NCBI GenBank assembly: GCA_005656395.1
Contig: SRSI01000018.1
Coordinates: forward strand, 1 to 64,000
Direction: 5' to 3'
DNA from: Strongyloides papillosus
Taxonomy: Eukaryota > Nematoda > Chromadorea > Rhabditida > Strongyloididae
Length of the DNA stretch: 64,000 nt
Shown: piece by piece, positions 6,148 through 46,813 of the stretch
Numbering within the stretch: the first letter of the stretch is position 1
How the letters are laid out: the number at the start of each line of letters is the position of its first letter
Translations under genes and position numbers: made by a program
Notes under the pieces: model-generated
The model's input: the letters and a program-made list of their open reading frames with translations, nothing else
What the model was told of the DNA's origin: nothing
Database searches by the model: none

Positions 6148-6936
6148 TTTTAAATTTTAAAAATGATTCTTTTTATTGCTTTCTCTATTTACTTAATATC
6201 AAAAATTTGTTGCTCGATTATAAAAGTATATTTTGACATCTGAATTTGAAACAGATGTAAAAAAATATTTATATTCAAGACATCATCACTCTTGTTAGTA
6301 TTTTTAATGAAAGCATGAGTAGTATTTTTATAATTCAAATTTTTATATCACAACTTACTAATTTTGGTATATAGATAAATGTTTTGTTAATATTTTTTGT
6401 TTAACCTCCGAAATCTATGTTCCCACCTGCTTGAATTACACTAACAAAACATTTACTGTACAATTCGTGATAAAATATTTCGTAATATCTACTAATTTTA
6501 TTCATTTGTCCGTATTTATAATTTTATCATCTTTTGAGAAATTTTTCCAAATAGTTAAGAAATAACAATCAAGAAAGTATTAGATTTTAATATTACTTCT
6601 ACAACTATAAGTTTTACTTGGTATTTTAATATATTTGCCACTCTATTTTATCAAATTTACACCACAAATCTATGGTTAAGAGCGTTCAAAATAAAGTTTA
6701 AGAGGGACATTCTTAAAGTGTAACTTGGTTTTCTAGAATAAAAAATCATCTTTACATTTATTCTATCTAAGTTAAAAGAAAATACTTATATTATTTATTT
6801 ATATAAATTTAGAGAACATAAACGAAAATTATACTTAAGACAATTATAATTTTCATAATTTTCTTTAGACATTAAAAAAAAGTACAAAAAATATAAAAAT
6901 ATATTTTAATGATTTATATGCATTTATTTTTATTAC
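6148..6936. other. Array spacer between C2 and C3, first part
   Basis: 5' flank of C2 with its upstream block at 6250-6290, then the 3' block of C3 at about 6690-6840. Nearly identical to the spacers at 8455-9240 and 10604-11380. No gene. Confidence 0.55.
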
Positions 6937-7115
6937 TGTTGTAACCTTTGCTCATAGCTAAGGCTATGAGTTTAGCACCAAAATTCATTTATTTAAGTGA
7001 AGACTAAACTGTTTTATTATCAAAACATGCTATTTAAATAGAAAATAATATAAATGAAATTATAATAATAACATAATTAATTATCATATATAAATATTTA
7101 TATTTAAATATTACA
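6937..7115. mobile_element. 179-bp TG..CA insertion with 5-bp target duplication (solo-LTR-like)
   Basis: Compared with the otherwise matching spacer at about 9238-9275, this unit carries extra sequence starting TGTTGTAACC and ending ATTACA. It is flanked by the direct repeat ATTAC at 6932-6936 and 7116-7120. TG..CA ends with a 5-bp duplication are the signature of LTR-retroelement integration, so a short solo LTR is the simplest reading. It contains a perfect 8-bp hairpin, CTCATAGC/GCTATGAG with loop TAAG, at 6951-6970. No internal domain or partner LTR is present in the window. Confidence 0.6.
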
Positions 7116-7236
7116 ATTACAAATAAAAAAATCATGTACATTTTATTATTTATTATAACTCATTCATAATTGATTAAACTTTTAATGATATTATATAAAC
7201 AATATGTTTAAAATAAATTTCTATAAGTTCACATAT

Positions 7237-8454: not shown

Positions 8455-9371
8455 TTAAGTTTTCATTTTAACTTTTAAAAATGATTCTTTTTATTGCTTT
8501 CTCTATTTACTTAATATCAAAAATTTGTTGCTCGATTATAAAAGTATATTTTGACATCTGAATTTGAAACAGATGTAAAAAAATATTTATATTCAAGACA
8601 TCATCACTCTTGTTAGTATTTTTAATGAAAGCATGAGTAGTATTTTTATAATTCAAATTTTTATATCACAACTTACTAATTTTGGTATATAGATAAATGT
8701 TTTGTTAATATTTTTTGTTTAACTGTCCGAAATCTATTTTCCCACCTGCTTGTATCACACTTACAAAACATTTACTGTACAATTCGTGATAAAATATTTC
8801 GTAATATCTACTTATTTTATTCATTTGTCCGTACTTATAATTTTATCATCTTTGGAGAACTTTTTTCAAATAGTTAAAAAATAACAATCAAGAAAGTATT
8901 AGATTTCAATATTATCTCTACAACTATAAATTTTTCTTTGTATTTTATGATATTTATCACTTTATCGAATCAACACCATATATCTATGGTTAAGAGAGTT
9001 CAAAATGAAGTTTAAGAGGGGCATTCTTAAAGTGTAACTTGGTTTTCTAGAATAAAAAATCATCTTTACATTTATTCTATCTAAGTTGGAAGAAAATACC
9101 TGTATTATTTATTTATTTATATAAATTTGGAGAACATAAACGAAACTTATACTTAAGACAATTATAATGTTCATAATTTTTTTTAGACTTTAAAAAAAAG
9201 TACAAAAAATATAAAAATATATTTTAATGATTTATATGCATTTATTTTTATTACAAATAAAAAAAATCATGTACATTTTATTATTTATTATAACTCATTC
9301 ATAATTGATTAAATTTTTAATGATATTATATAAACAATATGTTTAAAATAAATTTCTATAAGTTCACATAT
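8455..9371. other. Array spacer between C3 and C4
   Basis: Holds the C3 upstream block (8570-8603) and the 3' block of C4 (about 9010-9170). It lacks the 179-bp insertion found at 6937. No gene. Confidence 0.55.
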
Positions 9372-10603
9372 TTATGTTTCCTTTTTTTCCGGTTTAACAT
9401 TATCACTATATTGTCCTGGAATATTTCCTTTAGGATAAAACATGCATATAGTAAAAATGCCATCCTTTGATTCAAGTTCACTAATACCACATCCAATATC
9501 TGTGGTCGATACCCAAACTAATTGGGCAAACTCTGGAAAAACAGGTTCTTCATCAAGTTTATCATAATTAATATCTTCTGATCCGGCAGTCCACGAACGT
9601 AAAGGATTAAAATCATTTTCTGATTTTGCAATATCGAACATAATTCCAATTAAATTATTATCAATACCATTAATTCCATTTATTGGATTCTCAGCAATTT
9701 TTTGTGCTTTTTCGGCTAAAGTAGCATTAACAGTAAGTTTTTTTGCTTGATGTTGTATACGTAAATCATTAATATCACTTATTGTCTGTAAAATATCAAT
9801 GAAAAAAAATATGGTCAACTCACTTTAGCTATCAAAGCAGCATATTTATCAGGTTTTACGGTTGTAGTTGTGCTTTTAGTTGTTGTAGTTGCTCTTTTAG
9901 TTGTTGTGGGTTTTGGAGTTTGAGGTCTCAATGATGGTCTAACTGAAGGTCTAACTGGAGGTCTAGGTAAAGGTGTCTTAGGCGTAGTTTGTTTTTTTGT
10001 AGTTCTTTTTGGTGGAGTTGGTCTAGGTCCGAGTTTTTTAGTGGTTGGTCTCCCATTTGGAGGTCTTCGAATCGTAGTTCTTCGAATTGGAGATCTTCGA
10101 GTCGTAGTTCTTCGAATTGGAGGTCTTCGAGTCGTAGTTCTTCGAACTGGAGGTCTTCGAATCGTAGTTCTTCGAACTGGAGGTCTTCTAGACGTAGTTC
10201 TTTTAATTGGTGGTCTTCTATTTGGATGTCTTGGGTATGGAGGTCGTATCCCTAGAGGACTTATACCAGGGAATTTTTTTCCTTGAATTATCCTAGCCTG
10301 ATGTTTATTATCTTCATTGTTGCTCTTTTTTGATACAAAACTACTTTCCTCCCTTTGTACCCCTTTATTTTCAATCTGTCGTTTCCTTAGATAATTATTT
10401 TTACTAATTCTACTTTTAGAATGAACGAAAGAATCATGACCAACAAAATTTTTTGAGGAAAGATCATTTTGTATTAAATCTAATGATACACTATCGTTAT
10501 TTTCTACATTATTTTCTAATGCATGGTACTGAAAAAACAATATAGATAAAATGATAAATTTAATATAATAATTACTATAAAAAATATCCATTTTAGTTTT
10601 CAT
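9372..10603 (-). CDS. SCP/TAPS (CAP-domain) secreted protein C4
   Basis: Exons 9824-10603 and 9372-9785, intron 38 nt (GTGAGT..TTTACAG, phase 0), about 397 residues, or 393 from the second ATG. Signal peptide and propeptide (YLRKRQ) as in C2; stalk with about six RRTTTRRPPIR-like units; CAP domain with EFAQLVWVSTTDIGCGIS and FTICMFYPKGNI and only two Cys. The end of exon 1, the intron and the start of exon 2 (LIAKV; TISDINDLR) resemble C1 and C7, whereas the rest resembles C3. The gene therefore looks like a mosaic made by conversion or unequal exchange. CAP1 lacks the His found in canonical members. Confidence 0.88.
10050..10225 (-). repeat. 30-bp minisatellite in C4 exon 1
   Basis: About six 30-nt units encoding RRTTxRRPPxR, nearly the same order of variants as in C3. 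Confidence 0.85.
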
Positions 10604-11500
10604 TTTTAAATTTTAAAAATGATTCTTTTTATTGCTTTCTCTATTTATTTAATATCAAAAATTTGTTGCTCGATTATTAAAGTATATTTTAACATCTGAA
10701 TTTGAAACAGATGTAAAAAAATATTTATATTCAAGACATCATCACTCATGTTAGTATTTTTAATGAAAGCGTGAGTAGTATTTTTATTATTCAAATTTTT
10801 ATATCACAACTTACTAATTTTGGTATATAGATAAATGTTTTGTTAATATTTTTTGTTTAACTGTCCGAAATCTATGTTCCCACCTGCTTGAATCACACTT
10901 ACAAAACATTTACTGTACAATTCGTGATAAAATATTTCGTAATATCTACTAATTTTATTCATTTGTCCGTATTTATAATTTTATCATCTTTTGAGAAATT
11001 TTTCCAAATAGTTAAGAAATAACAATCAAGAAAGTATTAGATTTTAATGTTACTTCTACAACTATAAGTTTTACTTTGTATTTTAATATATTTGCCACTT
11101 TATCAAATTTACATTACAAATCTATGGTTAAGAGCGTTCAAAATGAAGTTTTAAGAGGGACATTCCTAAAGTGTAACTTGGTTTTCTAGAATAAAAATCA
11201 TCTTTATATTTATTCTATCTAAGTTGAAAGAAAATACTTATATTATTTATTTATTTATATAAATTTAGAGAACATAAGCAAAAATTATACTTAAGACAAT
11301 TATAATTTTCATAATTTTCTTTAGACTTTAAAAAAAAGTACAAAAAATATAAAAATATATTTTAATGATTTATATGCATTTATTTTTATTACAAATAAAA
11401 AAATCATGTACATTTTTTTATTTATCATAACTCATTCATAATTGATTAAATTTTTAATGATATTATATAAACAATATGGTTAAAATAAATTTCTAAAAGT
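10604..11500. other. Array spacer between C4 and C5
   Basis: C4 upstream block at 10707-10740 and 3' block of C5 at about 11140-11310. No gene seen. Confidence 0.55.
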
Positions 11501-12824
11501 TCACATGTTTATGTTTCCTTTTTTTTCCGATTTATCATCATTAATATATTGACCTGTGTTTTTTCTGTGAGGATAAAACATGCATATAGAAACCATGATA
11601 TTTTCTGTATCTATTTTACTAATACCGCATCCAATATCTGTAGTAGAAGCCCAAACTAATTGGGCAACTTCTTCAGGAACAGGTTCTCCATCAGGTTTTC
11701 CATAAACGATATTTTCTGATTCAGCAGTCCTTTCAGTTGAAGGAGTAGATTCATCTTCTAATCCTGCGAAATTAAGCAACCATCCAATTGAATTATCAAT
11801 ATTACCAAGTATATTTTTTATATCATCAGCAACTTTTTGTGCTTGGTTAGCTAAAGTAGTATTAACAATAAGCTCTTTTGCTTTATGTTTAAGACGTAAA
11901 TTATTAATATCAATTATTAACTACAAAATATTAGTGAGAAAGTATATTAAACTTACTTGAGATTTCAAACGAGCATATTCATCAGGTTTTAATGTTGTAG
12001 TTGTTGCTGTGATTGTAGTTGTTGTTGTGGTAGTAGTTATGGTTTTTTGAGTTTGATGTCTAGTTGGTGGGATAGTTAGTGGTTTAAGTGAAGGTTTTTT
12101 AGGTGTAGTTTGTTTTTTTTGTTTTTCTCTTTGTTAAAGGTTGTCTATGTCCGGGTTTTCTAGTTTGTGGTCTCTTATTTGGAGGTCTTGGAGTTGAAGT
12201 TCGTCGAGCCGTAGTTTTTCGAATAGGAGGTCTTGTAGTTGGAAGCCTTCGAGCTGTAGTTTTTCGAGGTGGAGGCCTTCGAGGTAAAGTTCTCCGAGCT
12301 GGAGGTTTTCGAGCAGTAGTTTTTCGAATTGGAGGTCTTCGAGGTGTTGTTCTTCGAAGTGGAGGTCTTCTAGGTGTAGTTCTTCGACCTGGAGGTCTTC
12401 GAGGTGTAGTTCTTCGAAATGGAGGTCTTCGGGGTGTAGTTCTTCGAAGTGGAGGTCTTCTAGGTGTAGTTCTTCGAGCTGGGGGTCTTGGAAAGGGGGG
12501 TCTTTTTCTTGGGTTTTTTCCAGCTATCGGTTTTTTAATTATAACTTTTTTTTTATTATTTTTTATTTCAGCAATTGTTTGTTCATTTTGCCCTTCTTTT
12601 TTATCAGCTTGTCTTTTTTTTAGATATTTAATTTCATTATTTTCACCTACAGAGTAAATTAAAGGTTCTTGATTTATAAGATTTATTGAGGATAGGTCAT
12701 TTTCTACTAAATCTAATGATGCACTATCTTCACTTCTTACATTAATTTCTAATGTTTGATATTGAAAAAACAGTTTAGATAAAATGATTAATTTAATACA
12801 ATAATTACTGTAAAATACACACAT
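11501..12824 (-). pseudogene. SCP/TAPS gene C5 with a single homopolymer frameshift
   Basis: Start MCVFYSNYCIKLIILSKLFF at 12824, propeptide end YLKKRQ at about 69-72, then the longest stalk repeat of the array (nine to ten RRTTPRRPPxR units). At 12113-12120 there is a run of eight T (A8 on the gene strand) where C2, C3 and C4 have seven. The frame ends a few codons later (about 12099) although the other frame stays open to the donor at 11956. Intron 11921-11956 (36 nt) and exon 2 (11501-11920) are intact, with EVAQLVWASTTDIGCGIS and SICMFYPHRKNT. A second extra A near 11520 lengthens the C-terminus to KKGNINM. It is either an early pseudogene or a homopolymer sequencing error. CAP2 is also less conserved than in its neighbours. 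Confidence 0.7.
12180..12490 (-). repeat. 30-bp minisatellite in C5 exon 1
   Basis: Longest version of the stalk repeat, about ten 30-nt units, with more divergent units at the distal end (RKTTARKPPAR, RRTLPRRPPPR) and more uniform units near the propeptide. Confidence 0.85.
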
Positions 12825-13921
12825 TTTTAGTTTTCATTTTAAACTTCGGAAAGTCATCTTTTTATTGTTTTCTTTATTTGCGTAATATCAAAAGTATGTT
12901 ACTCGATTATCAAAAGTGTATTTGAACATTTAAATAAAAAATAGACATAAAAATATTTGTATTCAAGATATCATCACTTATAAAATATTTGGAACATAAT
13001 CAAGAATAGTACTCTTTTAATAGTCCAAATTTTAATTTTACAACTTTTTGATTTAGATATGTAGATAAAAATATCGTTAATATTTTTTTATTTAATCATC
13101 AGAAATCTACGTCTCCGCTTGCTTTAGTTACACTTATATAAAATTTACTATATACTTTTTGTTAAAATATTTATTAATTCATACACTTGTCTGTATTTAT
13201 GAGCTAGATTTTATCATTTTTTTTAGAAATTTTGTTAACTAATCTAAAAATAATTTATCGAAAATGTACTAGACTACTTGATTTAAATATTACTTCTACA
13301 ACAGGAAGCTTTAATTTTTAATATTTGAGATATTTACCTTTTTTTGTCAAAAATAAGAATTATGAATATTCTTATAATATTTGAATATAAGAAGCTGTGA
13401 ATGAGTATAAATATGTTGAATTTAAAAATAATTATCTATATATAATTTTATACTATATTTACATTGTTTTATATCACCAGACTAATCTTATTTCTTTATA
13501 GGATTAGTCACCAATAATAAAATTTTAATTCAAATTAACATTAAATATATATGATAATAAAGGTCAAACTGATGTTTAAGAAAAAACTTTCCTAGTATAT
13601 AAAATGGTTTTCTTTGATCAAAAATCATTTTTAACATTTATCATATCTAAGCTGATAAAAAAAAACTTTTATTACTCTTATTCGTAAAAATTTGATAACA
13701 TTAACAAAAGTAGTGTTAAAGAAAGAAATCATTCTCATATCTCCTTTCTTTATATGAAAAACAACGTACAAAAAAGTAAAAATTGTAAATGTTTTAGATT
13801 GGGTTCATGTAATTTATCACAAATTAAAAACACTTTAACTTTATTATTGATTACTACTCACATATACATAATTAAATTTTTATTGATACCAAAACAATAT
13901 GTTTAAAGAAATTCTATAAGT
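12825..13921. other. Array spacer between C5 and C6
   Basis: C5 upstream block at 12941-12970 and the 3' block of C6 at about 13570-13700. The stretch at 13340-13520 is not matched in the other spacers and may be a small insertion. No gene. Confidence 0.5.
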
Positions 13922-15015
13922 TCACATATTTATGTTTTCATCACTCCGGTTTAACATTATCTTTATATTGCCTGGAATATTTCCTTTCGGAGAAAACAGG
14001 CACACGGTTATAATACCATCTTCACATTCCGTGTCAGTAAGACCACATCCAATATTTGTTGTGGAAATAGAAATTAATTGTGTAAATCTCTTAGGGGTAG
14101 GTCCGTTCTCAAGATTATCATAATCGATAACTGTTGATTCACTAGTCCACATGGATAAAGGATCATATTTACTTTCTGATTCTGCAATATGGAATGACAC
14201 ACCAGCAGATTCTTTATTAATATTATCAACTCTTTTTTCTGCTGATTCTTCAACATGTTTTTGTGCCCTCTTAGTTAAAGCATCGTCAACTTTAAGAATT
14301 TCTGCGTGATTTTTAGTACGTAATTCATTAATTTTTTTATTAACTGTAAAATATTGGTAACAAAAATACAGTCACTTTACATCAGATTTCAAATGAGCAT
14401 ATTTTTCAGGTTTTACTGTTGTGGTTGCTGTTGTTGTTGTGGGTTTTGGGTTTAGTTGGTAGAATAAATGGTGATTTTAATGTTAGTTTAGGTTGTGGTT
14501 TTAAAGTTGGTCTGGGTTTCGCTTTTAATATTGGTTTGGGTTGTGGTTTTCATGATGGTTTAAGTTTTGGTCTAACTTTAGATCTAGGTGTAATTCTAAT
14601 TGATCGAAAAGGTAAAGATTTTTTTAATGTAGTTTGTTTTTTTGTTGTTTTTTGGTAGATATGATTTATATCCGAGTTTTTTAGTCGGTGGTCTTCTATT
14701 TGGAGGTCTTCGAGCTGGAGGTTTTTAAGCTTTTACTCTATTTTTAATATTTTTCATTGGAATACTTTTTCGTTTACATTGACCACCTTTTTCACCAGAA
14801 TGTCGTTTCCTTAGATATTTATTTTCATTATTTTCACTTTTAGAATAAACTAAGGAGTATTGATTTATAAAATTTTTGATAATAGATCATTTTGCATTAA
14901 CTCCAACGATGCACTATTGTCTTTTTATACATTATTTTCTAATGTCTGATATTGGAGAAATAACATATATAAAATAATAAATCTAATATAATGATTACTA
15001 TAAAAAAATGTTCAT
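13922..15015 (-). pseudogene. SCP/TAPS pseudogene C6, multiple lesions
   Basis: The ATG at 15015 is followed by seven T on the gene strand where C7 has six, so the frame stops at once. TAA replaces a Glu codon at 14927-14925, the SSKNF region has lost one A, a TAA falls in the stalk near 14727, and a TGA interrupts the KP-rich tract near 14553. Exon 2 has lost one base just after the acceptor (A7 where eight are needed, about 14336-14342) and another in the CCAGG-CAATAT region near 13970. The intron at about 14344-14379 (GTAAAG..TTTACAG) is still recognisable, as are CAP motifs such as GCGLTDTEC and VCLFSPKGNI. The gene is clearly dead, although 60-90 residue open pieces remain. Confidence 0.9.
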
Positions 15016-15943
15016 ATTTAGTTTTCATTTGGAATTTTAAAAATGGTTCTTTTTATTCCTTTCTATATTTACTTAATATTAAAAATTTGTTGCTCAATTA
15101 TCAAAAGTATGTTTTAACGTATGAATTCAAAGCAGATGTAAAAAAATATTTATATTCAAGATATTATCTCTTATTTATCTAAATGTAAACAAGAGTAGTA
15201 TTTTTAAATATAAACTTTAATGCCAAAACTTACAGAGTTTGAAATTTAGATAAATATGTCATCATAATATTTTTGTTTAACTTCCTGAAAGTTATGTCTC
15301 TGCCTGACTTTGACTACACTTTTAAAGCATCTATTATATAATTTTTGAAAAAATATTTCATAATACTTAATAATTCATTAATTTGTCTGTGCTTAAAAGT
15401 TTAATTTTATAATTTCGTTAAAACGCTTGTTAACTAATTTGAAAATGGTTTATCAAAAATGTACTTGATTTAAATATTACTACTAAAACAAAATACTTAA
15501 CTGTGTGACTTAAAACAATTGCTACTTTATTTCATCAGTTAAGCATTACATATATCTGGATAGAAAAAAAGAAATCAAAGTTTAAGTAGAAACTTTCTTA
15601 AGATGTATCTTAGTTTTCTAGAATCAAAAATCATCTTCACTGTTTATTCTTTCTAAGTTGTAATAAATACTTATTTTGCTTATTTTAAATTCGGAATACT
15701 TTAACAAAAGTTATACCTAAGATCAACAAAATTTTTATAATTTATTTATTTTAGACCATAGAAAATACACGACAAAAAATGGAAGTGTAATATGATAATT
15801 TAGATGTATATATTTTTATCACACATAACAAACCATTTAAGTTATATTATTTATTACTATTCACTTTCATGTAATAAAATTTTTAGTGATATCACATTGA
15901 CAATATATTTGAGAAATTTCTATAAGTTCTCATATTCAAATTT
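15016..15943. other. Array spacer between C6 and C7
   Basis: C6 upstream block at 15131-15166 and 3' block of C7 at about 15590-15730. The last 70-100 bases before 15943 match the flank of C1 (2690-2765) closely, extending the exon-2 conversion tract. No gene. Confidence 0.55.
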
Positions 15944-16994
15944 TCATGGAATAGGTCTACGAATATTTTCAGGATATCGTCCTGGAATACCACCTTTTGG
16001 AGAAAGCAAACATATAGTTATAATACCAGCATTATCATCTAATTCACTAATACCACATCCAATTTCCTTAGATGAAACCCAAACTAGTTGGGCAAAATCG
16101 AGAGGAACAGTTCTTTCATTAAGATCATTGTAATCTATATCTTGTGTTGCAATAGTCCAAAAAGACAAAGGATCAAATTCACGTTCGGATTTTGCATGAT
16201 AGAAGATAAGTCCAACTGAATCATCATCGGTTTTTTTCAATTCTTTATGTGATTCATCAGCAATTTTTTGTGCTCTTCTGGCTAAAGTTGTACTAACAGT
16301 AAGTTTTTCTGCTTGATGTTTAAGACGTAATTTATTAATATCACTTATTGCCTGTAAAATATTAGTGAAAAAAAGGATGTCAACTCACTTTAGTTTTCAA
16401 AGTAGCATATTTACCAGGTTTTACTGTTGTTGTTGTGGGTTCTGCAGTTTGAGGTTTTGCTGGTGGGTTAACTGGGGGTTGAGGTTTTGGTTTAACTGGT
16501 GGTTTAGGTTTTGGTGTAACTGGAGGTTTAGGTTTATTTGGTCCGCTAGGTGATGGTTTTTTTGATGTAATTTGTTTTTTTGTTGTAATTTGTTTTTTTG
16601 TTGTTCTTTTATGTGGATTCGGTCTAGATCCGGGTTTTTTAGTTGGTAGTCTCCTATTTGGAGGTCTTGGAGCTGGAGTTTTTCGTACTGGAGATCTTCT
16701 TGCTAGAAGTGTTTTAGCTTGGAATCTTTTTTTATTTCTCTTCTTTGAAATACTATTCTTTTTATTATTCCTTTCTTTTTTATCAGCTTGTCGTTTTCTT
16801 AGATGTTTGTTCTCACTTATAGAATGAACTAAGGAATCTTGATTTATAAAATTTTTTGAAGATAGGACATTTTTCATTAAATCTGATAATGTAATATCTT
16901 CACTTCTTGCATTATTTTCCAATGCTTGATATTGGAGGAATAATATAAATAAAATGATAAATGTAATATAATAATCACTATAAAAAATATTCAT
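15944..16994 (-). CDS. SCP/TAPS (CAP-domain) secreted protein C7, Lys/Pro stalk
   Basis: Exons 16389-16994 and 15944-16351, intron 37 nt (GTGAGT..TTTACAG, phase 0), about 337 residues. Signal peptide MNIFYSDYYITFIILFILF, propeptide end HLRKRQADKK at about 64-70, then a stalk that differs from C1-C5: no 30-bp minisatellite but KKQITTKKQI and PKPPVTPKPKPPVKPKPQPP. The CAP exon has DFAQLVWVSSKEIGCGIS and ITICLLSPKGGI and is about 96% identical to C1 exon 2, while the stalks are unrelated. This indicates conversion or exchange limited to exon 2 and the 3' flank. CAP1 lacks His, as in the other members. Confidence 0.88.
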
Positions 16995-18996
16995 TTTTTA
17001 ATTTTCTTAGCAATTTAGAAAAAAAGTTGCTTTTATGGCTTATATTATTTACATAACGCTAAAAAGATATTGTTTGATTTTTGAAGAGTAAATTTTTAAG
17101 TTTCAATACAAAGCAAATGTGTGAAGATATTTATGTTCAAGATATTATCACTTATTAGATAGTGTTAGTGTAAAAAATAATAATATTATTTAAATTTGGA
17201 TCCAAATATAGATGTTAAAACTTATTATTACAAATATATCAATAAAAATATTGTTTTTTGTTTAATCATACGACGGTTTGGTATTCTAATGGTTGTGTGC
17301 ACATGTTTTGATTTATCCACTTTAAAAATATTTTGTATAAAATATAGCATAATAGATTTAAAATTTTCTAAAGTATTTTAAACAAATTATACGACAGTTA
17401 ACGTATGATAATTAAAGTAATATTCTAAAGTACAACCTTGTAAGTTATCTAAAAATTTAAACATTATCTACAAATCCTTTGAATTATTTACTCACGAATT
17501 TTCAGATTCACTTATTTGGACTTGAATATTTCAAATCCACACTTTTGGACAATTAATCCTTCTAAACCACCGATTTTACCCACAAGGTCAACTTGGAGCT
17601 TAAAACCACGATTCTTAAACCTTTAAATCTTTTGAATCTACATTATTTCTTACATAAATACCCCAGCATAGTTATCATCCTAGAATCCTTCTCTCATGCT
17701 TATGATTCCTGTGAAACCAGGTTCTACATTCAGGGGTCTTAGAAATCACATATACTCTACAAACCATTTCAAATACACCTTTGCACACTCTATCATTGTT
17801 ATTGGCTGACGTGGACAACTACTTCAACCCATCAAGAAGCAACTCAAGCACACAAAGAGAATTATCTAAAAAAGCTAACTTTATTTCAGGAAGAAACTAA
17901 TCCCAATTATGGTTAGGTGGTAGACCAGATATAGCATATAAATCTAATAAATGATCTCATAGAAATCTAAGCCATTAACTCGTGTCATTCTGTAAAATAT
18001 AATTGGATGTAATTTAAATGGTTTTTGTCCAATACATAGCTGTAGTTTGTTTTGATTTCTATAATAATTACGTTGTAAAAGTCACTTTTAATAGAAAAAT
18101 ATGGTTTTACATGCTAAAGATAAAATTTACAACACTAATTTTTGTAATTTTCCACTTACAACTTTGAATTTTAATGGCACTAAATGCTTTGTCCTTGAAA
18201 TAAATACAAAAACTTTCAAGATATTGTTTTGAATTTTAATTTTCAATGTCTTATTAAAATCTAATAAATCTATTATTTATTTCAATCAATAGACAAAGCT
18301 ATTCTTTTCTTCTTAAGATTCGTTTATATAATTTTCTATTAAAAATGCTTGTAGCTGAGTATGCTGTATTTCCAAGAAATACATGATAATTAATTGAAGA
18401 TTTTTTAATTATAAGTATCTTATAAACTTCATTGTAAGAAAGTTTTTTGAACAAACAAAATATATTAAAAATAGAATACTCTTAACTGTATGTATTTAAA
18501 AATGAACCCATAACCTTCGGTTGTTAAATTATGTTGTTAGAATTCAATATTATCTCTACGAAATGAAGCTTTATTTTCTAAATTGAGATATTTATCTTTT
18601 TCTTTCATTATTTTATGATTATGCATTCTAAAAGCAAATAAGATCAGAACGAAGATTAAGAAGAAGCATTTATTAAGATGTAAATTAGTTTGTCTTCTTC
18701 ACTATTTTTCAACGATAAGTAAAAAAAAATACTTATATTACCTATCATTTGTTAAAATTGAAGAACATAAACAGAGTTTAACTTAAGACCAAATTAATTT
18801 TCATATATAATTTTATTTTCGACCATAGAAAATGTATAGAGAAACAAAAATTTAATATGCCCATTTAAATGCATATATTTTGTCATAAATAAATATTCTA
18901 TACATTTATTTGTCATTATCATTCATTAATGTGTTAGTAAACATTTTATTTATCACATTAACGGTATTTTGAGAAAAAATTTCATAAATTCAAATT
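16995..18996. other. Longer array spacer between C7 and C8 with a GC-richer insert
   Basis: C7 upstream block at 17113-17148; 3' block of C8 at about 18650-18790. The stretch 17500-17980 has clearly higher GC than its surroundings and no match in other spacers. On the minus strand it reads PNHNWD, stop, FLPEIKLAF, which resembles part of a retroelement integrase, but it is full of stops. No intact gene is present. Confidence 0.5.
17500..17980 (-). mobile_element. Possible decayed retroelement fragment
   Basis: Base composition departs from the AT-rich background. The minus-strand translation contains NWDxFLPEIKLAF (x = stop) around 17875-17915. This recalls the WD..LP...LA(Y/F) segment near the C-terminus of Ty3/gypsy or Pao integrases. 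All frames have stops and no terminal repeats were found, so the call is weak. Confidence 0.25.
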
Positions 18997-24732: not shown

Positions 24733-24759
24733 TACTTCAGATATATTTTTTGATTCATT

Positions 24760-25600
24760 TTCATTGTCTTCGTCTTTCTAGTAATTTTCTTCTATTTCTT
24801 CTTTTTTATAGTTTTTTTTTCACATTTTCATCTTTTTCTTCACCTTCTTAATTTTAATAATATTTTTATTCATTATTCTTTTCGTGATCTTCCATAGGTT
24901 TAATCTGATCTTTATGTTCTGTACTTTTTTTCTGTCTCCTCTTCACTAGTAATTTCTTTTTTTTTATTTATTCTCAGTTTTAATTTTTATTTTTTCTATC
25001 TTCATTTGTTTATTATTCGCTAATAATTTTTTTCTCATATTCTTTTGTAGATTTGACTTTTACTTTCTTACCTTTATCTTAATCCTTTTCTTTTGATTTA
25101 AATTTTTTTTGGTATATTCACTGTAATTTACCATGTTTTTATAGTCTTTCGATGAATAAAATTTTTTTACTTTAATATTTACTAATTTATTTATACCTTT
25201 TTCATCACTTTTTTCATAACTAATTTTTACTTCTTTACTTTCTTTCTCAATATTCATATTTATTTTACGCATAATTCCTTTATTATCATAATTACTATAG
25301 TCAATCTTTATATATTTTTTTTATTAAGCTCTCCGTAATTATTGTAAATATTAACATTTTTATTACTTTTCATTTCATTTTCATACTATTTTCGTATTTC
25401 TTCATTTCCTCCTTCTTGACTATCTTAATTCCTTAAATCATATTTGTCTTCATTTTCTAAAGATTTGGCATATTCATGTTCTATAGAATGATAATGACAA
25501 CCTTCAAAAGAATTAATTGTTTTCTCTTTTTTCACGGTCTTTTCATAACCTCTTAAGTTTCCATTTCTCGAATAGTCATAATTCTAAATTTTTTTTTATA
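24760..25600 (-). pseudogene. Decayed Lys/Glu/Asn-rich protein gene
   Basis: Read on the minus strand from about 25600, coding-like sequence appears (YDYSRNGNLRGYEKTVKKEK, then SIEHEYAKSLENEDKYD) but is interrupted by TAA, TAG and TAA and at least one frameshift. It ends with an open piece at 25060-25272 (KESKEVKISYEKSDEKG). The remainder towards 24760 is Lys/Glu/Phe-rich with further stops. No family recognised. The composition suggests a hydrophilic repetitive protein. It could also be biased non-coding DNA, but the alternation of acidic and basic codons in one frame argues for a relic. Confidence 0.4.
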
Positions 25601-27072
25601 AAAATAGTCAAACATTTGTAATACTAAATGGTTTCATTTAAATAACTTATTTTTTAAACATACAAAGCATATCAGTGGTACACTGAAAACACCTAGAAAA
25701 AATAATTTTACTGATCAGAGAGAAAGTAAAACCTATTGTATATAAAATTTAATTTATATAAAATTTTTGACAATAATATTTTGATATTAAATAAATCTTA
25801 AACTCGTATAAGTATTAAAAGTAAAGTTAAATATATAAATTTTAAAAATTAGATTTAAAATAAAATTTTTATCGATTTTATACTATGTTATTTAAAGAAT
25901 AAATTAACAATTTTTCTAAATGTTAATTTCTAAAAATTAGTGAAATTAATTATAAAACATAAAATTTAATTACGTGTAATAGTTATTGAAAGTCTAAACA
26001 AAGAAAAATTTGTTAGTTAATGAATGCTATAACTTTTATTTTGTTAAAACAATAATAAAATTTTGAAATAAGTTTTAATTTATATAATCTTTATTGTATT
26101 CATAATCTTTAAACAAAAATCAAAATGAAACGTCATCTTTTTATTTAAATTATAGTGAAATAAAATATTTACATAATATTTTACGTTAAATGTTTTGTAA
26201 TTTTTAATGATAAACATAAATTTTTTATATTCTTTTGAACAAATATTGCTTTTGCAGTATCTAGTGAAAGTTTTATATTTACACTTTGTATTACTTTAAA
26301 ATAAATGATAGATTTTCTAACTTATTTTTTATGTAATAAATTGTAGTTTTATTCGTTAAAATTGAAAGTTATCAAAAATAATTTACCAATAAAAAATATA
26401 ATAACGAAAATTATAACTTAGTGATAATGGTTTAAAATTTCATGATCCATTTACTTATTCATTGGCAACATTCTTTGAATCAAAAGTTATTACAAAAAAT
26501 CTTTAACTCATATTTATTGGTAGAAATAATTACTTTTTTCGATTAATAACTTAACGATATAGTAAATAACAATCGAAAAGATTTATTATCTAAAGTTGTA
26601 GAATAAACTTTCTTGTTTTTATTATAAAGTCTCAGAAAGGGATCATCTACAACATATTGTAAAGTTACTATGAATAATTAAAAAATCTGTTGTTAATATT
26701 CATATAATCGAAAGGTTCTCTCACTTTTAATTAATAAATTCATAATTATGATATTTTTTTGAAATTTAATGAATATTTTAGTTGCAGCATATAATATTTT
26801 ATTACATTTTTTTGTGACCTGGGAAATTTTAATTATACCTTTTATCATGACTATCAATTTACAAAACAATACCACGTCTTTAATTTCTTGAAATGTTTTT
26901 TTAACAATTATTATAATAGTTTTAAGTTGAAAATTGGGGGCATAATCTTTCTTATTTCTAGAAAAATATTTAAATAATTCTAAATTTTTTAAAAGAGACA
27001 AAATAAAAGATTTTAAACAATAATTTTATAAATAAAATTATATTTTTGTACTAAAATAAGATAGTTATATTA
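25601..27072. other. AT-rich spacer downstream of the POP gene
   Basis: Extremely AT-rich. A 102-codon minus-strand frame at 26693-27001 starts with TTG, is Ile/Lys-rich and has no recognisable motif, so it is not called. No repeats or RNA genes seen. Confidence 0.5.
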
Positions 27073-30000
27073 CTAAGATGAATATTTCCATTTAATATTT
27101 AAAGTTTCTTTCACAAATGAAAATTCATCAACTGTAGTCTTAATTATTTGTTTTTTAGTTACAGTAGTTGTCTGTTTTTCTTCCTCGGTAACAGAGACTA
27201 AAACAGGATTTCTTTGGTATTTTATACCATCTTTACGAAGTACGTGATATAATTCAGCAGTGTATTTTAATGTATGAGCTGCATGTACATTTTGATCATT
27301 TAACGATGTTAGTATTAATGTACATGGCCATTGAACTGGTCTCATTGGCATTTTGATGTTATGATATGGTGAGTATCTGAGTAGATATTCAAAATCTTCT
27401 TTGTTATCTGGGTTTCCATATTCTCCATTCCAAGAAAGACCAAAGTTTAATTTATTGTATCTTACCATATCTAATAAAGGACTACCCATAATAACTGAAC
27501 CAAAAAGATCTGGTCTTAATCGTGATACTACAGCTGCTAATAGTCCACCATTTGTACCTCCACGGATAGCTAGTTTTGCTGGTCTAGTGTAGTTCTTCTT
27601 AATCAAATATTCAGCAGCAACAATAAAGTCATTGAAAGTATTGTTTTTATTTTTACCGGCACCAGCTTTATGCCATTCTTCACCATATTCACCACCTCCT
27701 CTAATACCAGCAATAACGTATATTCCACTAAAGTGAGTTACAAACATCAAATTTGAAGGAGAGTATGTTGGGAAACTAGAAATACCAAAAGCACCGTAAC
27801 TTTCAAGAAGTACAGGATTTTGACCATCTAATTTCATATCCTTTCTGTGGAAAATAAACATTGGAACCATTGTTTTGTCGAAGCTTTGGTAGTACACTGT
27901 TTTTATAACATAATCTTTTTTCTCGATTCCACTTATTTCTGTACTCTCAACAACTTTTAATTTATATGGTCGTTTTTTACTGATTCTCTTGAAATCTAAT
28001 GTATTTCCAGTATAAATTATTTGTGGCACAACTTGATTTATAATTCTAATAAAGAATCTACTATTAAAAATACTTCCAGAAAATTCAATATGATAAGATG
28101 TTTCGAAATCAAGTTGAGTAAGCATTCTGCCATTACGTTTATCATATATAAATGCTTTATTTGTAACATTTTCCATGTAATTGATGTACAAGTAATTTTG
28201 ACCAACGGCTTGGACATTTTTGATAAACTTTTTGCTGTCTCCTCTAATAATATCTTTCCAATATTTTTCACTTTGACCTGCATTTCCAATGTTAATTTTA
28301 ACAACTCTACCATTTGGAGCATTTTTTGTTGTTAAAAGGATGACCTCATCGAACAAAGAATCAACAATTGAATAGTGTGCATCGTATTTAGTGAATAATG
28401 GTTCCAATTGTATTCCCTTCTTTATGCTACTTTCGGATATTTTATGTAATCTCAAGAATTTAATGCCTTGCTGAGAATCACTATTACCAAGGGAGTATCT
28501 GACAAACAACATTCTTTCATCGTGTGATACCCATCCATGGACAAATACATTAGGAATATCATAAACTACATCTATTAATATATCATTTTCTTGCTTTGTA
28601 CCAAATCTATGATAGAATAATGCATGATACATTTCCTTAGCATCAACCAAAGAGGTAACAAGTTTTCCTTTTTTATCAACAAATGCTGAGTAGAAGAATC
28701 CTTTTGTTTCGTAGGCAAAGCCCATAAATGGACTAAAGACATATTTCAATTCATCCTTGATTTTACTGTATTTCTTATCAGTTTCTTTAAATTTGATAGT
28801 CCACAAATTACTTCCACTAACAGAAATTGCATAAGCCATATATTTATCATCTCTAGAGAATGAAACTTGTACAATTGTTGTTTTTCCCGTATTATCAAAT
28901 TCACTTATATTAAGGAATATTTCTCCTTTACCCATATAACCATCTCTTCTCCATATAGAACTAAAGAGTGTAATTATTATAGATAAAACATCAATGTAAA
29001 CTTACTCTTGATTTTCTGATGATCTACGATACTTGTAGTATACAAATTGGCCATGTTTTTCAAATATACTAAACTTGGGATAAGATGAAAAACTTATGAT
29101 TTTTCTCTCAATATAATTTCTAATTGTTATGGAGCTCAAGTATTTGTAAGATAATTTATTAAGTTTTTTAACGAAATCCACAGTTTTTTTGTTCTTTAAG
29201 ATTTCTAAATGTCGGTAGTAGTCATAAACTTCTTTTCCGAAAATTACATTATAACATTTTTCTTGACATCTATCAGTTTTGATATATTCTGTTACATTAA
29301 TTTTAATGGTACTATGATATCTCTCGTAATAATAATCCATCCAATCATCACATTCAGTACGTTCAGGAGTTGTCGATCTTGGTGGTGTTTTTGTTCTTTT
29401 TGTACTTCTTGGTGTTGTTGTTTTTTTATCTGATGGTGGTTTTGGTGTTGGTTTTGCTGGTGGTTTAACTGGTGGTTTGCCATTTCCGGTTGTTGTTGTT
29501 GGTCCACTTGGTGTAGTTTTTGGTTTTTTCGTTCTTTTTGTTTTTCTTGTCGTTGTTGTTGGTCCTCCTGGTGTTGTCTTTCCACCAGATGGAGGTTTCG
29601 GTTTTTTTGTTCTTGTTGTTGTTGGTCCTCCTGGCGTTGTCTTTCCACCTGATGGTGGTTTGGGGCTTTTTGTTTTTCTTGTCGTTGTTGTTGGTCCTCC
29701 TGGCGTTGTCTTTCCACCAGATGGAGGTTTGGGGCTTTTTGTTTTTCCTGTCGTTGTTGTTGGTCCTCCTGGTGTTGTCTTTCCACCAGATGGAGGTTTC
29801 GGTTTTTTTGTTCTTGTTGTTGTTGGTCCTCCTGGCGTTGTCTTTCCACCTGATGGTGGTTTGGGGCTTTTTGTTTTTCTTGTCGTTGTTGTTGGTCCTC
29901 CTGGCGTTGTCTTTCCACCAGATGGAGGTTTGGGGCTTTTTGTTTTTCCTGTCGTTGTTGTTGGTCCTCCTGGTGTTGTCTTTCCACCAGATGGAGGTTT

Positions 30001-30597
30001 CGGTTTTTTTGTTCTTGTTGTTGTTGGTCCTCCTGGCGTTGTCTTTCCACCTGATGGTGGTTTGGGGCTTTTTGTTTTTCTTGTCGTTGTTGTTGGTCCT
30101 CCTGGTGTTGTCTTTTCACCAGATGGAGGTTTGGGGCTTTTTGTTTTTCTTGTCGTTGTTGTTGGTCCTCCTGGTGTTGTCTTTTCACCAGATGGAGGTT
30201 TGGGGCTTTTTGTTTTTCTTGTCGTTGTTGTTGGTCCTTCTGGTGTTGTCTTTCCACCAGATGGGGGTTTCGGTTTTTTTGTTCTTCTTGTGGTTGTTTT
30301 TCCAGGACGGGGTGGTTTTGGTTTTACTGGGCCACAATGTGGAGGAAGATGGTGAATGTGAATATGAATATTGGTATTTCCTTTTTGTTTGACTATATGT
30401 TTGTCTTTACGTTTACCTTTGCTTTCTTCTTTTTCTTCATTTTTAACTAATGCTTTATCATTATTATTATTATCGATTTCGGCTAAATCATTTGTTTCAT
30501 CTTCGTTTTTATTTTTTAGTTTTTTTGCATCAGTAGACAAGTAAGGTAAGAACGTCACTAAGGCAATAATATAAAATATAAGGAACTTTAAATACAT
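27073..30597 (-). CDS. Secreted prolyl oligopeptidase (S9A) pseudoenzyme with Pro/Thr/Lys repeat stalk
   Basis: Two exons, 29006-30597 and 27073-28960, joined by a 45 nt phase-2 intron (GTAAGT..CTTTAG); 1159 residues. Exon 1: signal peptide MYLKFLIFYIIALVTFLPYL, Lys/Glu segment, about 300 residues of PKPPSGGKTTPGGPTTTT repeats, then from about residue 413 a region matching the start of POP (EVYDYYRHLEI, SYPKFSIFEKHGQFVYYKY). The POP match continues without a gap across the splice (NQ, then DSIWRRDGYMGKGEIFL), which proves that the two open frames are one gene. The catalytic domain keeps YGAFGIS, IRGGGEYGEEWHKAG and SPYHN. The nucleophile motif GGSNGG is GGTNGG (Thr1000, codon 27553-27555). 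The Asp is kept (LND1086) but the Arg two residues on is Asn. The expected His around 1125 is missing (VSVTEEEKQTTT). Peptidase activity is therefore doubtful. Confidence 0.92.
29570..30290 (-). repeat. Higher-order tandem repeat in the POP stalk, 201-bp period
   Basis: Basic units of 63-69 nt encode PKPPSGGKTTPGGPTTTTRKTKS and close variants ending GKTKS or RTKK. Three variants in fixed order form a 201-nt super-unit: the same phase (CTTTCCACCTGATGGTGG) recurs at 29641, 29842 and 30043. The high identity points to recent expansion. All periods are multiples of three, so spurious long ORFs occur on both strands. Confidence 0.9.
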
Positions 30598-32429
30598 TGT
30601 TTAGTAAGAAATATCGAAATATTAATTCTTTGATACTATGTATTTCTGAAAAAAAAACCAAGAACTGAAATTGTGTGATCAAGAAATTAAATTATCCTTA
30701 AATACCACTTTATAGTTTACCTGGGATTTTAAAATAAACAGTAAATTCTATTATATTTCCAATTTAAATGGATTTTTGATTTAGTAAACTTTTTTAATTT
30801 TGTACTTTTAAAAGTTATAATTAAATAAATTTAATTTTTTGTTGCAAGTTTATAATACTTCCTTTTATTTAATAATCGTGATTTTTAAAATCTTACTATT
30901 GAATTAATCTTTTTATCCTCTTCTACATATAAATTATTGGTGCTAATATTGTTTGATTTTTTTTGTTGTAATGATACACAAAATGTTAATCATTGTATTT
31001 TTAATTGAAATATGTTTTACAATTTTTTGTGAATGTTTTTTTCGTTAATCTATCTGCAAAAAATTATATTGGTTTACTCACAATTTTTTTATCGATAACC
31101 TATTCTTAAGATCATACGTCATTAAATATTCAAAAAATTGAAATATTGTTTAATAGGCGTAGAACATCTTTGACTATACATTACATAGGTAAACGTAGTA
31201 TCAAATTTATTGAAAATATTTTTTAATGTTCTTTCATGAGTTGTATTCTAATGAATTAAATCTTATGTTTGCAATTTTAATAGTAAATCAAATTACATTA
31301 TTTTAACTTTAATCATATTCTTGTATATCATTTAAAAATAAAAATTCTTATCACTTTTAAAAGTTGTTAAACTGTAAATTTTTTTAGGTAATTTTCAAGG
31401 TATGAATATTCTTAAAATTAAAAGTTATAGGTACTTATTTTTTTGCATTATCATGGAAAAGTGATTTTGAAATGTATAACGTATTCCCCTTGATCAGAAT
31501 GACATCAAACATCTCTGATTAGGCATTGGAGAGAGCAAATATTTAACTTTTAGTACTTTTAATGAAGAATTGATAATATAATGCGTAACTTTTTCTTATT
31601 CAATTTTTTTATTAAGATGAGTAGAGAATTATAGTTTTGAGAAAATATTTAATATTTCGCTTTAGGGAAAATGCATGAATCTCTTACTTTTTGGGACAAA
31701 CTTCTTCCTTGTACTTTCTTTAAAAAAATCAATATATCAAGTTATCTTATTGATTGAACAATTGTAGCGCTCCAGTAAACATAATACTTGCAAATGTAAA
31801 TTATTTATAATATATATAAATAAACTAACCAATCAATTAAGAAAATTTTATCTGATATTAAGATTAAAATATATAAATAATTATTTCATGAAATTTTTTT
31901 ATTAATTTCAATTGTTTTTCTACTTTTCGAGACGATGGACATTCGCTTGTCCACGACTATCTATACTTTTTTTTTTCAAAAATGTCATTTTTCTTATCCT
32001 TGGACAAGTTAATGTCTTCTCTCCCAATTTCCATTTTAATGTACTAAATTCGATTAAAGCATCATCTGGAATTTTAGACTCAATAATTAATTTGGCAGAT
32101 TCGGAATCAAATCTGTTTTCAGAAGTCATATCCTAAGAGGACACTTTATGAAGTCTGGAAAATCCTGAAACAGAGAGATTCTGTAGATCAATAATGTAAC
32201 TAAATATTTCTTTGTTATATTGTACTTTGTTTATTTTTTTAATAAAAGTAGTCTTATTGCATTGTCTTTATTTTCTTGTTTTTTTGCTTTATCTTAAACT
32301 TATTTGTCATCCTTATTATTAAGATAGCAGAGAGTTAAATTACAGATTGTATTTATGTTACGATTCTAACCATCAAAATCAACTTTGGGTCTAACCATTA
32401 AGTTAAATATTTTAAAGCCATCACCAGTA
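30598..32429. other. Spacer upstream of the POP gene
   Basis: AT-rich. A 69-codon minus-strand frame at 31920-32129 and its plus-strand shadow have no recognised motif. I see no convincing promoter element beyond AT-richness. The second MITE begins at 32430. Confidence 0.5.
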
Positions 32430-33753: not shown

Positions 33754-34563
33754 TTATTTTTTTTCTGTATTCTCTATTTTTGGTCTACGAATATTTTTAC
33801 GATATTGTTTTTTTATTGATCCTTTAGGAGAAAATAGACATATAAGAAAACCTTCTCCTTTGGCGTTTCTACTGATACCACATCCAATTGTTTTAGATGA
33901 AACCCAAATTAGTTGGGCAAAATTATGAGGAACAGTCTTCTCATCAAGTTTATTATAATCTATATTTTCTGATCCTTTAGTCCATTCAGACGTCGGAATA
34001 AAGTAATGATTTATATTAGGAGTAAAATAGATTAGAACTCCATATTTTTGACTTTTAGTATTAACCTTTTTTTCATTTTTGTTTGCTAATTTATCAGCAA
34101 GTTTTTGTGCTTCTACAGTTAATTTAATATTAACGGCAAGTTTTAGTGCTTGATGTATTTTACGAAGATAATTAATATGACTTATTACCTGTAAAACATT
34201 AGTAAAAAAATACAATCAACCTACTTCAGATATCCATGTGGCAAATATGCCAGACATAGGATCTTTATCAGAAGGTTTTATTGAAGGTCTTTCGCATGGC
34301 TTTTTTTTCTTATGAACTTTTTTTTTGTTCTTTTTACTTTTATAGGCATGCCGTTTGTCTAGATATTCAGATTCTATGACCTCAGCTATAGGATTAATTA
34401 GTGTATCACGTTTTATGAAATTTCTTGAGGATTCATCATTTTGTACTAAATTTAATGACGCAATATTTTCACTTTTTACATTATTTTCTAATGCATAATT
34501 TTGAAAAAACAGTTTACATAAAATAATAAAAGTAATATAACGGTAATAATAAAAAATTTGCAT
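33754..34563 (-). CDS. SCP/TAPS (CAP-domain) secreted protein C10, short Lys-rich stalk
   Basis: Exons 34225-34563 and 33754-34188, intron 36 nt (GTAGGT..TTTACAG, phase 0), 257 residues. Signal peptide MQIFYYYRYITFIILCKLFF; propeptide ending EYLDKRHAYK; only a short Lys tract (KKNKKKVHKKKK) as stalk. CAP exon: HINYLRKIHQALKLAVNIKL, NFAQLIWVSSKTIGCGIS and LICLFSPKGSI, with a longer basic tail (NIRRPKIENTEKK). It is closest to C8 in layout. It stands alone 12 kb beyond C9, with the POP gene between, so the POP lies inside the SCP/TAPS cluster. Confidence 0.87.
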
Positions 34564-43687: not shown

Positions 43688-46600
43688 ATGCTATTTGTAT
43701 TTGTAAATGCAGTTTTACTATTTTTAAACGTATATGGGTTACCTATTAATGATGGTACATGTAAGAGTGATATTAATAAGTATTTCAAGCACAAGGAGGA
43801 TGTACAAGTAAGTTTACTTTTTATTAATTATCATCTTGTTTAGGTAATAAATATTTATAAAAATTTAAATTTTTCCACTAGTAAAGAACAATCAACAAAA
43901 GGGTACCTTGATTTAACATATACACAAGAGGAAATTCAAAAAAATCGCAAATTAGATGTTATCCTAATACCACACTCTCACTGTGATGCTGGGTGGTTAG
44001 AAACATACGAATCTTACGGAAGACAAACAAATAACATTTTGAATAATGCTCAAAAATACTTACCAATGTACGAGAATATGAAATTCATCTACGCCGAGAT
44101 GGGTTTCTTTGAAATGTACTGGAATCAAATAGATAAAAACGGGAGAGAAAAAGTAAAACAACTCCTCCATACAGGAAGGTACGAAATTGTAACAGGTGGT
44201 TGGGTACAAAACGACGAAGCCAACTCATTTTACTATGGAATCTTAATGCAACTAATTGAAGGACACGAATTCTTAAAAAATCACCTTGATTACACCCCTA
44301 AAAATCATTGGTCAATTGATCCATTCGGTCTTTCCACAACAATGGCATACATTATAAAGAAATCCGGTTTCGAGAATGCCGTTATTAATAGGGTTCATTA
44401 TTTAATGAAACAAAAGTTTGCTCAAGAAAAGTTGTTTGAATTTAACTGGAGACAGCTGACTGGTGGGAAGGAGAGTGAAGATTTGTTTACACATGTCCTT
44501 CCATTTGAAGGTTATCTTTTCTATGAACATTGTGGACCAGATTCTAGTGTTTGTTGCAGTTTTGATTTTCTTAGACTTCACGTTTATTCATGTCCAAAAG
44601 AAAATCCACAAGCTATAACAGATGATAATATTGAGGAGAAATCAAGATTGATAGCAGATCAATTTAGAAAGAGAGGTCTTTTAATGAATAATAGTGCCAC
44701 CTTTATACCATTAGGATATGATTTTGCATGGGCCTTTGAATCTGAATGGGGAGATCAATACACAAATTACGAAAAGATTTTTGACTATATTAATAAGAAT
44801 AGTGATAAATTCAACATGAATATTCGATGGGGAACAGTTAATGATTATTTCGAGACTGTTCATAAGAATATTAAAGAAACAAAACAAGAAACAAAAACTT
44901 TATCAGGAGACTTTTTCACTTACTCTGATAGAGGTCAAAGATACTGGTCGGGATATTACGTATCTAGACCCTTTCACAAACGTTTTGAAAGGCTATTGGA
45001 GCATTACCTTAGAGGAGCTGATATCGTTTATAGTTCTGTTCTTACTAAGAAAGGTCCTGTCAACAAATTAGATTATAATTTACTCGTAAAAGCAAGAAGA
45101 ATCTTAGGAATCTTCCAACACCATGATGGTATAACAGGAACCTCAAAAGGACACGTTATGGATGACTACAGAGAGAAACTATTCAATGGTGTAAAAAATA
45201 CTTATGAAGTAATCGAAAAAAGCATTCAACATAGTTTAAATCACAACAACAGTATTGAAATAATTAACAAAATCCAATCTTCAGATAGTTATGAAAAAAC
45301 TAACATTATTAACGAAAATAGAACTATTATCATTATGAATCCATTAGGACATGAGAAGAATACAGTTATCTGTATAAAAGTTCCCTCAAATGATTTTTAT
45401 ATTCTTACTGATGATAGAAGTGTCCCGATACAAGAGTATCACCCTGTCATTGCATCTTTTGACGATAAAAATGAGACTAACATTGATAATAATGGATTCG
45501 ATTTATGTTTTGAGGCATTATTACCACCACTTGGATTGGTTACCTACACCCTTGAAAGAGGCATTATGTACAAACCACCAGTGGCTCAGATTTCTTTATC
45601 AAAAACTAAAATCAAAAGTAACCACTTCGACATCTCAAGTACAATAAAAGATAACAGAATAAAAAACTCTTTTGTTGATGTTACATTCAACTCAAAAACA
45701 GGATTCATTGATTCAATTGATAAAATAAAAATTGATTTACATTTCACGAAATATGGTGTCATGAAGGATGGTCAACATTCCGGACCATATATATTCCACC
45801 CTGATGGTCCATCAAAAAGGATAAGTGAAGAGGGCAATATTTTCATCATCTCTGAGGGTAAACTAAAATCAACAGTTTTTGTTAAAGGATCAAATGATGT
45901 TAATTTGTACCATACTTATGAAATCACCAAATTTGATAAGTCAATTACGATCCAAAATTCAGTTGATATATCAAAATTGAGTAACTTTGAATTAGGGATG
46001 AAATTTGCAACATCCATCAATAATAAAGATACATTTTATACTGATCTCAATGGTTTTCAAATGATAAAAAGGAGGCATTTACCTGATTTACCATTACAAG
46101 GAAACTTCTACCCTTTCCCATCTATGATGTACATCGAGGATACTAATAAAAGATTAAGTATTTTAACAGGACAACCACTAGGTGTATCCTCATTAGATAA
46201 TGGAAATGTAGAAATTTTAATTGACAGGAGAAGTGACTATGATGACGAGTGTGGTATGGGTCAAGGAATCAAAGATACATTAAAGGCATGGTCGAAATTT
46301 TCTATAATTGTTGAAGATTTAATTGATAATCAGATTAAGGAGGATTCTCTGACAGGTTTTGTTTCTGGATTAACACATCAAACATTATATTCGTTGTTAT
46401 ATCCTCCTATTATAATGACAACTATGGGTAAAGTGGATCTAAAGGAGGTTTCAAATTTTTCAATCTTTAAAAACCCCCTTCCATGTGATGTACATCTCGT
46501 TATGGGAAGATCACTGCTAAGAAAAGAGGATTATGATAAGAGAGATGAAAAAAATGAGGTTATCAGGAGTGCCAGTAACGAAATAGCCCTTATCTTTAAA

Positions 46601-46813
46601 CGTTTCTTGGGTGATTGTCGAGTCTCCAATACAAACAATATCAGAAGTTGTAAAGATAATGAAACCGGAAAAATACTCTTTACCGATCTACTAAACATAA
46701 ACTATAAAGCAATAACTGAAACCTCCTTAACATTGTTAAATGTTTACAAACCATCAATCTCCCATATAGATATCGATAACCAGGAAATGAAAACCATAAA
46801 AATCATAACTTAA
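43688..46813 (+). CDS. GH38 alpha-mannosidase, Golgi mannosidase II type
   Basis: Exons 43688-43807 and 43844-46813 with a 36 nt intron (GTAAGT..GTTTAG, phase 0), 1029 residues. The frame is open to 43658, but the first true ATG is 43688. N-terminus MLFVFVNAVLLFLNVYG is a hydrophobic signal or signal anchor with no cytoplasmic tail to speak of. Family motifs: PHSHCDAGW (His86 and Asp88, zinc ligands), GGWVQNDEAN, WSIDPFG (Asp199, nucleophile), LPFEGY..CGPDSSVCCSFDF, which is characteristic of class II Golgi enzymes, and FQHHDGITGT (zinc-binding His at about 467). All catalytic residues are present. Known role: trimming of N-glycans in the Golgi. It could alternatively be secreted, given the short N-terminus. 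Codon use is less AT-biased than in the SCP/TAPS genes. Confidence 0.93.

Follow-up and report, generated by a model that had tools for sequence, protein, structure and literature searches.

The 64,000-nucleotide window analyzed here, positions 1 to 64,000 of the forward strand of contig SRSI01000018.1 in the Strongyloides papillosus assembly GCA_005656395.1, contains on its minus strand (complement 27073-30597) a gene for a prolyl oligopeptidase (POP) family protein that lacks the nucleophile Ser, the catalytic His and the substrate-binding Arg, and that carries a long mucin-like stretch ahead of its POP domain. Sequence comparison establishes the fold family, the lost residues, a four-species clade, the presence of the stretch in that clade and its absence from the Ser-bearing sisters, and purifying selection between two Ser-less copies; the gene is real, maintained and part of a Ser-less POP clade spanning four species. 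The protein most likely serves, though this is unproven, to bind a ligand of the host.

Gene structure and active site

Two open frames that look like separate genes had been joined by the initial annotation over a 45-nucleotide (nt) GT-AG intron, and that structure holds. Exon 1 (30597-29006, minus strand, an open frame of 1592 nt) encodes a putative signal peptide, a His-rich motif, a proline/threonine (P/T)-rich mucin-like region and the POP domain's initial ~100 residues; after the intron (29005-28961, minus strand, reading GTAAGT...TTTAG), exon 2 (28960-27073, minus strand, 1888 nt) encodes the beta-propeller and an alpha/beta-hydrolase domain with a degenerate active site. The exons, counted by length only, give 1160 codons including the stop, in agreement with the 1159-residue product first proposed. 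The Pfam profile for the POP propeller, PF02897, is split by the intron (profile positions 10-92 at residues 449-530 in exon 1, 96-402 in exon 2), and exon 2 matches PF02897 (E 1.8e-37), the S9 hydrolase profile PF00326 (E 2.1e-43) and porcine POP (E about 1e-110); the S9A architecture, an N-terminal beta-propeller with an alpha/beta-hydrolase domain, is present. Two UniProt records, P0122 (S. papillosus A0A0N5BVD6) and P0002 (S. venezuelensis), contain SENQDSIWRRDGYMGKG, the product of the splice, and the intron position, with a GTAAGT start and an AG end, is common to the paralogous genes L002, L003 and L004. P0122, a separate and non-identical S. papillosus record, is 99.2% identical to the window gene over exon 2 and also reads GGTNGG at the nucleophile motif; exon 2 of a paralogue on contig C21 is 99.7% identical to the S. 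papillosus UniProt record A0A0N5CCI0. A further S. papillosus record, P0133 (602 amino acids), repeats part of exon 1 and ends within exon 2, suggesting a copy of the window gene that was mis-assembled or mis-modelled.

Residues were placed through an alignment to porcine POP (phmmer), with site roles and numbers (Tyr473, Ser554, Arg643, His680 and others) known from work on the porcine enzyme. Ser status was checked in the 34 rows of a MAFFT alignment, in which P0133 stops before the active site; two homology searches each covered 120 of thousands of hits. Both alignments put Thr1000 (ACA, 27553-27555, minus strand) at Ser554, a retained Asp1086 (27295-27297, minus) at Asp641 and Asn1088 (27289-27291, minus) at Arg643, all as initially described. 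The loss of the catalytic His also stands, although Lys as its replacement does not: phmmer and MAFFT agree on Gln1127 (CAG, 27172-27174, minus) at His680. The catalytic Ser/Asp/His triad has become Thr, Asp and Gln, and the Arg643 position lacks Arg in all seven rows of the clade described below. Because A0A0N5BVD6 shows the same splice and the same Thr, a read error is unlikely, and with Thr also in a second copy of the gene on contig C15 we rejected sequence error as the cause of the missing Ser. Elsewhere in the clade the nucleophile is replaced by Glu, Ala or Lys; the orthologue P0002 has additionally lost the Asp and Asn555.

A reference set of 16 rows, picked for carrying Ser, Asp, Arg and His, has 97 invariant columns, 88 of them present in the window exon-2 row. 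The window protein keeps 71/88 yet loses three of the four catalytic ones (hypergeometric p 0.022), and by the same count the six other clade rows lose 3 or 4 of 4 (p 0.0017-0.041). Outside the reference set were P0128, which has all four catalytic residues, P0005, which ends before the His, and L006 and P0011, which lack only the Arg. The predicted fold of an orthologue is intact, with its lowest certainty at the loop that formerly held the His, and for the window protein we predict secretion and a folded domain in which that loop is uncertain. An enzyme fold, here predicted on an orthologue, from which catalytic residues are missing marks a pseudoenzyme, and, judged by its sequence, the window protein is very likely catalytically dead.

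Relatives and the mucin-like stretch

What appeared in the window to be a lone gene is one member of a Strongyloides clade sharing the mucin-like stretch. A search of the genome for POP genes (58.2 Mb, 79 contigs) gave seven matches, four of them without the nucleophile Ser: the window gene (L001) and its copy on C15 (L002), both with Thr, and two genes on C21, L003 with Glu and L005 with Thr. All four residues are present in L004 (C47) and L007 (C22), and L006 (C47) has Ser, Asp and His with Ile in place of Arg. Ser-less proteins also occur in S. venezuelensis (P0002, P0004, P0012), S. stercoralis (P0006), S. ratti (P0125, P0126) and Parastrongyloides trichosuri (P0129).

The tree comprised 31 of the 34 aligned rows, leaving out P0122 (the L001/L002 gene), P0003 (the L003 gene) and the short P0133. 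It places the window gene in a Ser-less clade of L001, L002, L003, P0002, P0004, P0006 and P0125, drawn from four Strongyloides species, with three Ser-bearing sisters, P0005 from S. ratti and P0123 and P0124 from S. stercoralis, which group together at 87/85. The presence and absence of Ser on this tree needs three changes, forced by the starred branches, and three again when the catalytic columns are removed; these are most simply read as three losses of Ser. Two losses and one regain in the three sisters would also make three changes and is allowed by the count; we set it aside because regaining a whole active site is implausible. A single clade uniting the mucin clade with the L005/P0012/P0126 group was rejected by the approximately unbiased test (p 0.0012), the groups having been named after the tree was seen. 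Outside the mucin clade, the nucleophile position is Asn in P0129 and Ala in P0126. L003 and L005, Ser-less members of different clades, sit on one strand of C21 inside a stretch of less than 8 kb (425930-433150), and the accessions of their counterparts in S. venezuelensis, A0A0K0F4H0 and A0A0K0F4H2, are also neighbours.

In the window protein 431 residues precede the POP domain, 41% of them Pro or Thr (P+T), and the core of this region is a 69-nt tandem repeat (29534-30298, minus strand; 11.3 copies by Tandem Repeats Finder) encoding a 23-residue unit rich in Pro, Thr and Lys (P/T/K-rich). It is thus mucin-like in the sense of a long P/T(S)-rich tandem-repeat region. Composition was measured in 19 of 20 rows (P0008 gave no anchor): the six full-length clade records have 198-458 residues ahead of the POP domain with P+T of 25-42%, the three Ser-bearing sisters 64-66 residues with 9-12%, and the other rows 24-67 residues with 0-21%. 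Since the stretch is present in the Ser-less clade and not in its sisters, stretch and Ser loss map to the same branch, and a single catalytic loss with gain of the stretch, before the sequenced Strongyloides species split, is most likely. In the C15 copy, exon 1 is likewise open, over 515 codons. The hydrophobic start, MYLKFLIFYIIALVTFLPYLS, is a putative signal peptide, recognized by eye only; the P0002 record is without the usual hydrophobic start, perhaps because its gene model is short. Ahead of the repeats, at residues 76-88 (30334-30372, minus strand), stands the His-rich motif HIHIHHLPPHC (NIHIHIHHLPPHC), which in the form HIHIHxLPPHC or near it recurs in the members from S. papillosus and S. 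venezuelensis; those of S. ratti and S. stercoralis show looser His/aromatic versions. The motif could bind metal, and the P/T-rich stretch would probably be O-glycosylated.

Compared with porcine PREP (S9A, 1qfm), the window protein is without Ser, His and the substrate Arg and adds the putative signal peptide, the P/T-rich stretch and, where the domain begins, a Cys pair with N-glycosylation sequons. The Ser-bearing Strongyloides POPs, such as P0005 (S. ratti B5TSQ3) and P0124 (S. stercoralis A0AAF5D6Z4), share the N-terminal Cys/INVT region and belong to the same larger clade; they differ in having Ser, Asp and Arg (and, in P0124, the His, before which P0005 ends) and in being without the mucin-like stretch.

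Duplication and selection

When 80 kb of C15 was compared with the window (blastn, matches >150 bases), similarity was confined to 24733-32429, a segment of ~7.7 kb that is 95-97% identical to C15 493242-500886. Because the match is limited to this segment, a segmental duplication is preferred over an allele, and we set an allelic copy aside, the C15 flanks being without matches >150 bases in the parts compared. Between the exon 2 sequences of the two copies, a recent duplicate pair, there are 16 silent and 15 replacement changes (dS 0.044, dN 0.010, dN/dS 0.231, by simple counting without correction for base composition or transition bias, on one copy pair); under neutrality, site counts predict 80% replacement changes, from which 16:15 departs with a binomial p of 9e-5. 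A dN/dS of 0.23 between two Ser-less copies indicates that the protein is constrained without the Ser; selection that keeps a gene without catalysis, the other mark of a pseudoenzyme, is thus seen on one pair of copies. In more distant comparisons dS approaches or exceeds 1.

A shift of constraint toward the propeller over the hydrolase domain is a hint only, with 77:104 invariant columns in six of the seven clade rows, compared with 61:116 among six Ser-bearing ones, the hydrolase count there ending at residue 600 (Fisher p 0.13), and a search for a clade-specific conserved surface gave just five scattered residues. Codons 509-511 of the C15 exon 2 hold three adjacent replacements, Trp-Asn-Gly to Gly-Val-Glu, at the Trp595 site, perhaps a small gene-conversion or repair tract.

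Function, rival explanations and neighboring genes

Given that three of the four key active-site residues are missing and that the same design occurs in four species, the predicted secreted protein likely affects the host through binding, not cutting. We favor, with somewhat more confidence than doubt, a maintained, predicted secreted pseudoprotease that likely binds rather than cuts, maybe as a ligand trap or decoy at the host interface. A POP domain without Ser, His and Arg sits behind a long P/T-rich stretch, which would hold the propeller/hydrolase head off a surface or in mucus, and the protein could work without catalysis among the parasitic female's secretions, trapping ligands or acting as a decoy.

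Several observations count against this reading. Support for the clade, 94/91 (89/91 when masked), falls below the tool's mark of 95. The window gene and its C21 paralogue L003 give a dN/dS of 0.49, a looser constraint, and L003 retains His at the His680 column, counter to uniform decay. Identity between S. papillosus and S. venezuelensis is 90.0, 78.2 and 84.1% for the Ser-less pairs and 96.3% for L004/P0007, the single Ser-bearing pair compared; constraint on the Ser-less proteins is real but relaxed, weaker than in the active paralogue. In the pocket, the window copy keeps Tyr473, Phe476, Asn555, Trp595, Tyr599 and Val644 and changes Val580 to Leu and Ile591 to Phe, and over the seven clade rows Tyr473, Phe476, Trp595, Tyr599 and Val644 are kept in 26/35 cases, which is no special retention beside the 72-81% of family-invariant columns kept; Trp595 has drifted, with Gly taking its place in the C15 copy and P0004 having Arg. 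As the pocket is kept no better than invariant columns, proline-peptide binding in the old pocket lacks specific support. Of the "binding-only or regulatory pseudoenzyme" first suggested, the pseudoenzyme part is upheld; a binding-only or regulatory role is what we infer.

Among rival explanations, the protein might pair with, or titrate the regulators of, Ser-bearing secreted POP paralogues; the same genome does encode Ser-bearing paralogues (L004 and L007 complete, L006 with Ser, Asp and His). We think such a regulatory partner unlikely, because POP is normally a monomer and the mucin-like stretch points to an outward role. Related known proteins are DPP6 and DPP10 (S9B), described in PMC4350108 as joining a propeller and hydrolase fold with a replaced catalytic Ser to a non-catalytic role, the solved and inactive DPP10 modulating potassium channels; unlike the window protein they are channel-associated and belong to another subfamily, and DPP10 has the triad His and Asp. 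It is likewise doubtful that the stretch itself is the working part, adhesive, lubricating or an antigenic smokescreen, with the POP domain a folded carrier. The length of the stretch varies across copies and species, neighboring genes carry P/T/K-rich stretches, and PMC6327390 discusses O-glycosylation and adhesiveness for secreted TIL proteins of S. venezuelensis, but a POP domain that is under purifying selection and keeps 71/88 invariant columns argues for more than a carrier.

Decay toward a pseudogene we regard as very improbable: the gene does evolve faster than the active paralogue compared and its catalytic residues vary between members, but the frames are open in both copies and in records of four species, dN/dS is 0.23 between two copies that both lack Ser, and the Ser loss is older than the four-species split if the clade is right. 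We give just as little credence to the idea that Thr acts as the nucleophile in some remaining or changed catalysis. Although Thr has a hydroxyl and the window copy keeps Asp1086 and the Tyr473 and Asn555 residues, His680 has become Gln, P0002 lacks the Asp and Asn555, and the nucleophile position of other clade members is occupied by Glu, Ala or Lys. Parasite proteases called inactivated, including the S1 pseudoproteases termed SMIPPs, have a chymotrypsin-like S1 fold; the window protein, with S9 domains, falls outside that class and is non-homologous to them. For parasite proteases called inactivated, inhibition of complement in vitro is reported in PMC5553898.

Beyond the single gene, and with slightly more doubt than belief, we propose a class of mucin-borne pseudo-POPs of Strongyloides' own, arising in one founding event within the genus, in which a mucin-like stalk replaced catalysis, and acting as host-facing ligand traps, which with two further Ser losses would make much of the "parasitism protease" POP expansion non-cutting. 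Strongyloides POPs are listed in PMC5449551 and PMC5979966 among enlarged, parasitic-female-enriched families, and PMC10138266 discusses them as enzymes. In four Strongyloides species, PMC5979966 reports higher levels in the parasitic female for both the SCP/TAPS and the prolyl endopeptidase families. The motifs given for SSTP_0001108800 are all present in P0124, a Ser-bearing sister, and would say nothing on expression of the Ser-less members. By titles and abstract openings, among the matches listed, we found no treatment of inactive Strongyloides POPs, an earlier mention being possible; an editorial mentions an existing family-by-family review (PMC5364833). If the Ser-less group holds, members that cut have to be told apart from those that do not whenever POPs are counted, tested with inhibitors or screened as antigens, and ligands could be sought directly for a defined set of pseudoenzymes predicted to be secreted.

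Twenty further frames of the window were scanned, and five match the CAP (SCP/TAPS) domain; several of the rest begin with a hydrophobic stretch and are P/T/K-rich. Together these secreted-looking exons form an array on the minus strand (3203-16997, 33754-34215 and 57378-63842), where one frame, 7237-8454, combines a CAP domain with a P/T-rich stretch. On the plus strand, 43844-46813 is a single 989-residue frame for a GH38 alpha-mannosidase.
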